A stretch of DNA of 64,000 nucleotides from Salinirubellus salinus (GTDB taxonomy: Archaea > Halobacteriota > Halobacteria > Halobacteriales > Haloarculaceae): positions 3,224,001-3,288,000 of the forward strand of contig NZ_CP104003.1 in NCBI RefSeq assembly GCF_025231485.1. Reading direction: 5' to 3'. Position 1 is the stretch's first letter, and each line of letters begins with the position of its first letter. Position numbers and translations under genes: made by a program. Positions 30,260-32,906 of the stretch are shown here, in pieces. The notes under the pieces are model-generated. The model saw nothing but the letters and a program-made list of their open reading frames with translations, was not told the origin of the DNA and did no database searches.

Positions 30260-30368
30260 TGGGCCCTGCCGGATTTGAACCAGCGATCACCCGGTGTCCC
30301 ACAGTCCCGAAAAATGTCGGGAAACTGATATGAGCCGGGGGCTTTGAACCAGACTAAGCTAAGGGCCC
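30260..30368 (-). tRNA. tRNA with CAU anticodon (Met elongator or Ile2), intron-containing
   Basis: A 109-base gene folding to a complete tRNA after removal of 33 bases. Acceptor GGGCCCU/AGGGCCC, D stem GCUU/AAGC, anticodon stem CCCGG/CCGGG with loop CUCAUAA, T stem GCUGG/CCGGC with loop UUCAAAU, and discriminator A. CCA is not encoded. The anticodon CAU fits elongator Met; it also fits the Ile2 tRNA whose C34 becomes agmatidine, and the GGGCCC acceptor leans toward Ile. I cannot decide. It is not typical of the initiator. Confidence 0.85.
30296..30328 (-). other. BHB-type intron of the CAU tRNA
   Basis: A 33-base intron between positions 37 and 38. Exon CUCA pairs with intron UGGG as the four-base central helix; the bulges are UA|U and AC|A, a canonical bulge-helix-bulge for the archaeal splicing endonuclease. 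The intron itself forms a hairpin CAGU..CCCG / CGGG..ACUG. Confidence 0.8.
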
Positions 30369-30390
30369 TGTGTACCGAACTGCCCGGCCC

Positions 30391-30400
30391 GGATTATTGA
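30391..30400 (-). promoter_or_regulatory. tRNA TATA box overlapping an endonuclease stop codon
   Basis: TCAATAATCC on the minus strand, about 25-32 bases before the tRNA 5' end. The TAA inside it (30394-30396) is the stop codon of the upstream endonuclease-like gene. Confidence 0.6.
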
Positions 30401-31155
30401 ACCTGTCGGGTTAACGCATCACCTCGCCCGCCCAGTGTCTGTTCCAATTCTTCCACGCTCCGGACCACCACACACTCCTTGCCGGTCCGGTCGTAGAGCG
30501 CCAGTTTTCGCTCGAACTGCTCGGCGTTGGGGCGCTCGCCGGAGGCGTACCCGTTCACCTCCACCCAGAGGTCCCGGTCCGCGAGGTAGAAATCACCGTA
30601 CCAGTTGTTCTCTCCGAGCGGCGGGTGGACCTCGTACTCGATGCCGTTCTGGTGTAGATACATCGCGACGGCCAGTTCGTGCCGACTGTCGAGTCTCGCA
30701 CCTCCGGGTCCCATCGTGGACGTTCCGTGTCGCTCTCCGGGGCTGATTCCGCTCGCCTCACACGCCTCGCGCCACGACCCGAAGTGCTTCTTCACGCTAC
30801 TGCTAGCGTACTCGCCGTACTCGTCGTACTGTCGCATCGTCAGGTGGTCGGTACTCACCCGTTCGTGAACGGACTGCACGTCCACCACCATCGCATCCCG
30901 CTCGGCCTCGCCGTACTCCCCCACCTGCATCCCGTCCGGCGTCACCCCGGCCTCCCGGAGCACCTCGGACCAGCTGGAGTCGATTACGCTGTACATCCGC
31001 TCGAGACAGGGAAATCGGTCGTCAGCCTGCGCGTCTCGTGTGGTCGGTGGCTGGCCCATCTCCTCGGCGAGCATCTGTAGTGATGCGACCAACTCCTCGT
31101 GCGTGTACCCCTCGTACTCTGTTTCAGTGTGCTGGTTTCCGTGGAACTCGCCCAT
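30394..31155 (-). CDS. Homing-endonuclease-like protein with two associated repeats and a PD-(D/E)XK-type nuclease domain
   Basis: A 253-residue protein. Residues about 18-71 and 86-137 are two copies of the homing-endonuclease-associated repeat (each ending in a W-E-A-G pattern: SSWSEVLREAG and FGSWREACEASG), helical DNA-binding units. Residues 157-240 look like an Vsr/EDxHD-type PD-(D/E)XK nuclease: Glu160, Asp188 in WYGDFYL, Glu199 in WVEVNGY. GC is lower than its neighbours (for example CATCTGTAGTGATGCGACC), suggesting transfer. It ends 25 bases upstream of an intron-bearing tRNA, and its stop codon lies in that tRNA's TATA box. I start at ATG 31155; the frame is open to 31332. Confidence 0.75.
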   Translation of the reverse strand: MGEFHGNQHTETEYEGYTHEELVASLQMLAEEMGQPPTTRDAQADDRFPCLERMYSVIDSSWSEVLREAGVTPDGMQVGEYGEAERDAMVVDVQSVHERVSTDHLTMRQYDEYGEYASSSVKKHFGSWREACEASGISPGERHGTSTMGPGGARLDSRHELAVAMYLHQNGIEYEVHPPLGENNWYGDFYLADRDLWVEVNGYASGERPNAEQFERKLALYDRTGKECVVVRSVEELEQTLGGRGDALTRQVQ

Positions 31156-32800: not shown

Positions 32801-32906
32801 CGCCACCTCCAGGGCTCGAACCTGGGACCACCTCGTCTCTGCGGCCGACAGCGCGAGACTGCGCGGCCGTAACAGCGAGGTGCTCTACCAACTGAGCTAA
32901 GGCGGC
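32801..32906 (-). tRNA. tRNA-Asn (GUU), intron-containing
   Basis: A 106-base gene folding to a 73-base tRNA after removing 33 bases. Acceptor GCCGCCU/AGGUGGC, D stem GCUC/GAGC, anticodon stem CCUCG/CGAGG with loop CUGUUAA, T stem CCAGG/CCUGG with loop UUCGAGC, discriminator G as expected for archaeal Asn tRNA. CCA is not encoded; the CCA-adding enzyme gene lies about 110 bases away, divergent. Confidence 0.9.
32837..32869 (-). other. BHB-type intron of tRNA-Asn
   Basis: A 33-base intron between positions 37 and 38. Exon CUGU pairs with intron GCAG; bulges UA|C and AG|A give a canonical bulge-helix-bulge. The intron body forms a stem GGCCG/CGGCC. Confidence 0.8.

Follow-up and report, generated by a model that had tools for sequence, protein, structure and literature searches.

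A putative free-standing homing endonuclease gene lodged upstream of an intron-bearing tRNA-Met gene in haloarchaea

A gene found directly upstream of an intron-bearing tRNA-Met(CAU) gene probably encodes a free-standing homing endonuclease dedicated to that locus in haloarchaea. The gene lies in a stretch of 64,000 nucleotides, the whole of which we refer to as the window (Table 1). On sequence evidence, the best reading of its protein is a free-standing homing endonuclease that combines homing endonuclease associated repeats (HEAR) with an I-Bth0305I/Vsr-like domain and is dedicated to tRNA-Met. The gene occurs exclusively at this location, inserted just upstream of the tRNA promoter; empty sites are found in close relatives, some copies are decayed and whole copies are associated with the tRNA intron. 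The nuclease is thus a likely selfish element and a candidate route for the spread of archaeal tRNA introns. As the gene is fixed beside one tRNA and, if whole, is always next to the intron, and as close relatives have neither, intron mobility becomes testable.

Table 1. Coordinates of the nuclease gene, its domains and the adjoining tRNA features in the window
Feature	Positions	Strand	Basis and remarks
Free-standing homing-endonuclease-like gene	30394..31155	-	253 aa, ATG at 31155; start set by homologs
HNH_repeat (homing endonuclease associated repeat) 1, PF18780	30943..31107	-	Profile match
HNH_repeat 2, PF18780	30745..30882	-	Profile match
Predicted PD-(D/E)XK / Vsr-like nuclease domain	30433..30693	-	Fold and profile; limits approximate
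TAA stop overlapping 3' edge of tRNA promoter element	30394..30396	-	Open reading frame and promoter motif
tRNA-Met promoter motif CCCGACAGGTTCAAT (consensus CCCGACAGGCTAAAG, -42 to -28)	30396..30410	-	Motif from gene-less loci
tRNA-Met(CAU) with intron	30260..30368	-	Rfam, 52.7 bits; 85.9 bits with tRNA-Met model
Archaeal tRNA intron, 33 nt, canonical position 37/38, BHB-like fold	30296..30328	-	Alignment to intronless relatives and RNA fold
tRNA-Asn(GUU) with intron, usual upstream neighbour of tRNA-Met	32801..32906	-	Rfam

Read along the minus strand, the order is tRNA-Asn(GUU), the nuclease gene and tRNA-Met(CAU), with three plus-strand genes (DsrE-like, TusA and one unnamed) between tRNA-Asn and the nuclease gene, and 25 nt between the nuclease stop and the first base of tRNA-Met (30368). 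Both intron-bearing tRNA genes were detected by Rfam and missed by ARAGORN, which overlooks tRNA-Met because of its intron. The intron of tRNA-Asn is about 33 nt long, and its presence varies within genera (for example, g55). The ATG at 31155 is most likely the true start of the nuclease gene, since homologs begin there, and a longer open reading frame with a GTG start is probably spurious.

The initial annotation had described a protein with two endonuclease-associated repeats and a nuclease domain, encoded by a gene of lower GC content than its surroundings, and each of these points held. GC content is ~0.62-0.65 in the gene versus 0.67-0.75 in most adjoining stretches. The two PF18780 repeats were recovered at E 2.4e-17 (63.4 bits against a curated cut-off of 26), the general HNH_repeat family being common in haloarchaea; an NCBIfam search with the protein gave no match. 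AlphaFold modelled the full-length protein with moderate confidence (mean pLDDT 78, pTM 0.48), local pLDDT being mostly high in the nuclease domain. Foldseek returned I-Bth0305I as the best PDB match to this model (E 1.5e-3, probability 1.00), with Vsr among the next plausible matches, and a profile of eight homologs found the same I-Bth0305I chain using hmmsearch (E 3.3e-5), with no other significant match. Together these searches predict a Vsr-like fold for the catalytic domain and, judged from the modelled structure and the profile, the nuclease domain of the protein is real. Residues E160, H177, D188 and E199, candidate counterparts of the EDxHD catalytic residues, are invariant in an alignment of the eight homologs; the E, H and second E align with 3r3p, in which the chain has Ala at the position of D188. 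Dehydroquinase matches obtained with phmmer from the single sequence were weak only and were judged spurious. A single further PF18780 protein was found in the same genome (G000; L002, G000:C1:2850783-2853941); its architecture is different, and its gene lies between a TnpB-like gene on the upstream side and tRNA-Gln on the downstream side.

We surveyed the distribution of the gene with protein searches of 293 genomes of the order, its other families being sampled, and with profile searches of all available genomes of four haloarchaeal families (146 + 26 + 170 + 125 = 467). Full-length homologs number 12 in the 467 genomes and are spread over the four families; a first alignment of eight gave 41-48% identity to the window protein. 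The sequence of Halorientalis salina NEN8 (L034) is the same as that of G267 and was counted once. A 13th genome (G301) has a deleted remnant of the gene at the same site. The gene stays beside tRNA-Met even where other DNA parts it from tRNA-Asn (G000, G365 and G368). A scan of viral contigs for relatives gave a single weak partial relative, and a phage origin was set aside.

These comparisons strongly support the tRNA-Met gene as the landing site of the nuclease gene, as the initial annotation had proposed. All 12 homologs share the strand of tRNA-Met and immediately precede it, within 100 nt, and no full-length homolog away from tRNA-Met was found in the 467 genomes of the four families or in the sampled order. 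Empty sites in close relatives have tRNA-Asn, a short spacer and then tRNA-Met, the spacer measuring 48-122 nt in gene-less congeners (g69 and g55). Flank homology stops 11-13 nt past tRNA-Asn in g69 and g55; in genera g44, g68 and g10 it starts again near -43 to -48, immediately before the promoter motif. In g69, flanking DNA rejects a grouping of carrier G205 with carrier G230 (p-AU 0.00075), and the closest relative of G230 by the same measure is G412, which is gene-less and intronless. Gain of the gene is the simpler reading in this genus; replacement in the opposite sense, or co-loss of gene and intron instead of co-gain, is possible.

The presence of the tRNA-Met intron was scored with a covariance model of spliced tRNA-Met, whose match length parts intron-bearing from intronless genes; counts were read by hand, and 45 genomes, among them G411 of g69, were left unresolved. 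The intron is present in 12 of 12 gene-bearing tRNA-Met genes and absent in 63% of scored genomes. Among resolved genomes, it occurs in 41 of 125 in family f1 (33%), 21 of 149 in f4 (14%), 75 of 122 in f7 (61%) and 18 of 26 in f12 (69%). The joint probability of an intron in all carriers by chance is 3e-6 for resolved genomes and, conservatively, 5e-5 when all unresolved genomes are assumed to have the intron, both values being uncorrected for relatedness; within genera alone, the probability is ~0.2 x 0.07-0.14 x 0.43. In g55 the intron is confined to the carrier, and in g69 both carriers have it and four gene-less species lack it. Introns beside the gene are also longer (median 37 versus 30 nt, p 1e-4, with lengths good to +/- ~2 nt and rows not independent). 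The intron is found in many gene-less genomes as well, and the remnant in G301 adjoins an intronless tRNA-Met. The tRNA-Met exons of G110 exactly match those of G000, a member of another family, yet 9 positions separate them from those of all four congeners. An earlier suggestion that the intron may mark the history of the target fits this pattern, in which the intron goes with the gene, and the sequences suggest that the whole gene possibly moves the tRNA-Met intron along with it.

Two further loci (L148 in G295 and L211 in G490) have an intronless tRNA-Met with exons nearly identical to those of the window and unlike those of the congener G275. It seems that tRNA-Met alleles pass from one lineage to another in the absence of the nuclease gene too.

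A homing cycle predicts selection on function together with frequent decay. Three pairs of related copies have dN/dS values of 0.16-0.26, a further pair being saturated at silent sites, and several copies are damaged. A nonsense mutation interrupts G110 at codon 8, a frameshift is present in G267 (Halorientalis salina), the usual ATG is missing from G494, and two pieces of the gene survive in G301. Resolution of the protein tree is poor, and the tree follows taxonomy in part. Because it is weak, the tree does not demonstrate transfer between families; rejection is limited to the f12 clade and is marginal (p-AU 0.047), and we did not retain the tree as proof of transfer. This weak, partly family-clustered tree would also suit an ancestral gene of the tRNA-Asn/tRNA-Met interval that descended vertically with many losses and no homing, and a constant location is expected under that reading too. 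Such a history is nevertheless unlikely: the gene is in so few of the genomes, the g69 carriers are not sisters by flanking DNA, the tRNA-Met allele of G110 is unlike that of its own genus, and each loss must cleanly remove gene and intron and alter the promoter.

The same site has a second nuclease. In G298, G036 and G070, the occupant is a PDDEXK_5 protein instead; the two that were tested match PF11645 at E 1.7e-33 and 1.3e-31. This protein is a relative of PDB 2ost, taken here to be I-Ssp6803I. I-Ssp6803I is encoded in a tRNA intron. In a wider search for PDDEXK_5, the best 18 matches were directly upstream of tRNA-Met, as were 22 of the 30 loci examined overall (L162 in G298, L214-L229, L231, L236, L237 and L240 are loci of this kind), and six other loci were downstream of tRNA-Asn with no tRNA-Met nearby. 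Since the tRNA-Met beside the PDDEXK_5 gene is intronless in 19 of 22 cases, the intron is not required by every nuclease at the site. From these sequence comparisons, we conclude that two unrelated nuclease families use one site and that the HEAR nuclease alone is tied to the intron, which makes the tRNA-Met locus a repeated target in haloarchaea. In G389 (L237), the PDDEXK_5 frame enters the tRNA gene by ~10 nt. An apparent PDDEXK_5 remnant consisting of the last codons (L163, G212) lies by the same intron-bearing tRNA-Met allele as in G298; four other species examined from the genus of G212 are intronless.

Occupants of other kinds are present too. Family f7 has a MoCF_biosynth (MoaB-like) gene in the tRNA-Asn/tRNA-Met interval (L116, L118, L123, L196, L200, L204 and L209), and at four loci (L136, L144, L145 and L146) the 3' end of tRNA-Met is partly repeated downstream of the gene, a trace of the kind that integrative elements leave.

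The nuclease gene might be cargo or a defence gene that an integrase or general recombination has placed at a tRNA hotspot, in which case its proximity to tRNA-Met would be incidental. Compatible with this are the other genes in the interval (MoCF_biosynth and PDDEXK_5), the partial tRNA-Met 3' ends in relatives, which are typical of integration, and a match of PADLOC candidate PDC-S69 to the nuclease domain (E 5e-8). Integrase cargo, however, is expected 3' of a tRNA gene, and this gene is always 5' of it and close by; full-length homologs elsewhere were not found in the genomes searched, and no duplicated tRNA-Met 3' end is present within the window, for which integrase-borne cargo was therefore rejected. 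We regard the cargo or defence explanation as quite improbable.

It remains to account for the overlap between the end of the gene and the promoter of the tRNA. The initial annotation had placed the TAA stop in the TATA box of the CAU tRNA and had suggested that the gene supplies this promoter from its own end. The overlap itself is confirmed: the stop spans -28 to -26 and meets the 3' edge of the promoter motif. This motif, which is ungapped and was trained on 143 tRNA-Met loci without a whole gene, starts mostly at -41 or -42 in those loci and scores far lower in a control stretch farther upstream of tRNA-Met. The stop falls inside the motif in 3 of 12 copies of the HEAR gene (G000, G110 and G365), lying up to ~57 nt upstream of the motif in the remaining copies, and in 6 of 22 PDDEXK_5 copies (G052, G246, G418, G452, G294 and G474). 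Because 143 gene-less loci have the motif, the promoter is ancestral and the gene was rejected as its origin; the suggestion that the end of the gene brings it is mostly wrong. The stop lies inside the motif because the gene abuts it, and we infer that the A/T-rich box holds the first stop met by an abutting frame in GC-rich DNA, for HEAR and PDDEXK_5 genes alike, which explains the overlap without special adaptation. One genus lends the earlier suggestion partial support. In g69, the empty allele has TCGATCCTTTCGGTAGTCTCAAGGG; in G230 the left side retains TCGATCCTTTCG, and both the right-hand promoter ACCGATAGCCTAAAG and the leader depart from those of the gene-less form. Promoter, gene and intron thus seem to have been exchanged together. 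That the coding end evolved into a TATA box and so made the insertion tolerable is very improbable and largely refuted, since the stops inside the motif and the g69 promoter on which it could draw are set against a motif at the same position in gene-less loci, a stop upstream of the motif in most copies and the expectation that any abutting frame would end in this stop-rich box.

Under the homing reading, which we prefer, the two HEAR repeats would read DNA and the Vsr/I-Bth0305I-like domain would cut it, the target probably being tRNA-Met alleles without the gene. The break would be repaired from an allele in which the gene adjoins the tRNA promoter on its upstream side, the neighbouring tRNA genes would act as homology arms, and gene, promoter and often the tRNA intron would be copied jointly. 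The intron may interrupt the recognition site and so shield the resident allele. More tentatively, the nuclease might cut intronless tRNA-Met at or near the anticodon loop, with repair co-converting gene, promoter and intron. If true, a protein-spliced tRNA intron of archaea could home by means of a free-standing endonuclease encoded outside it, with conserved tRNA genes serving as arms.

The mechanism of archaeal tRNA intron transposition has been stated as unknown (PMC4090602), and the open-access literature searched, which leaves out most subscription papers, yielded no free-standing endonuclease tied to an archaeal tRNA intron that is spliced by proteins. The closest match in structure is I-Bth0305I (EDxHD; PDB 3r3p; PMC3943268), which is the best fold match and sole significant profile match and likewise has a nuclease tethered to a DNA-binding region. 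Its family, in contrast, is phage-derived and group I intron-associated, the aligned domains are only ~26% identical and the DNA-binding part differs. Rfam finds nothing but tRNA genes in the window, with no group I intron around the gene. The nuclease may work like the I-Bth0305I family, and we do not file it as a member because the gene is free-standing and has no group I intron. I-Ssp6803I and PDDEXK_5 (PF11645, PDB 2ost) offer a second comparison, being a PD-(D/E)XK homing enzyme with haloarchaeal relatives at the same tRNA-Asn/tRNA-Met site; that family is separate and lacks HEAR repeats, and its haloarchaeal copies are mostly by intronless tRNA-Met.

Under the collaborative homing model proposed for group I introns (PMC2988022), a free-standing endonuclease can mobilize an intron in which it is not encoded, its target being the site where that intron inserts. 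The pairing of a free-standing endonuclease with a separate intron is shared here, whereas the intron is of the archaeal, protein-spliced tRNA kind and its mobility is putative. In layout, the nearest parallel is SegB of phage T4, a free-standing homing endonuclease between tRNA-Arg and tRNA-Ile (PMC2988022, Table 1), whose listed target is the tRNA intergenic region and which needs no host intron. SegB is a phage-borne GIY-YIG enzyme, unlike the present gene, which resides in an archaeal chromosome, joins HEAR repeats to a Vsr-like nuclease and always accompanies an intron-bearing tRNA-Met. A free-standing endonuclease between tRNA genes is thus already known from T4 SegB, and what appears to be new, against the open-access literature searched, is the link to an archaeal tRNA intron.
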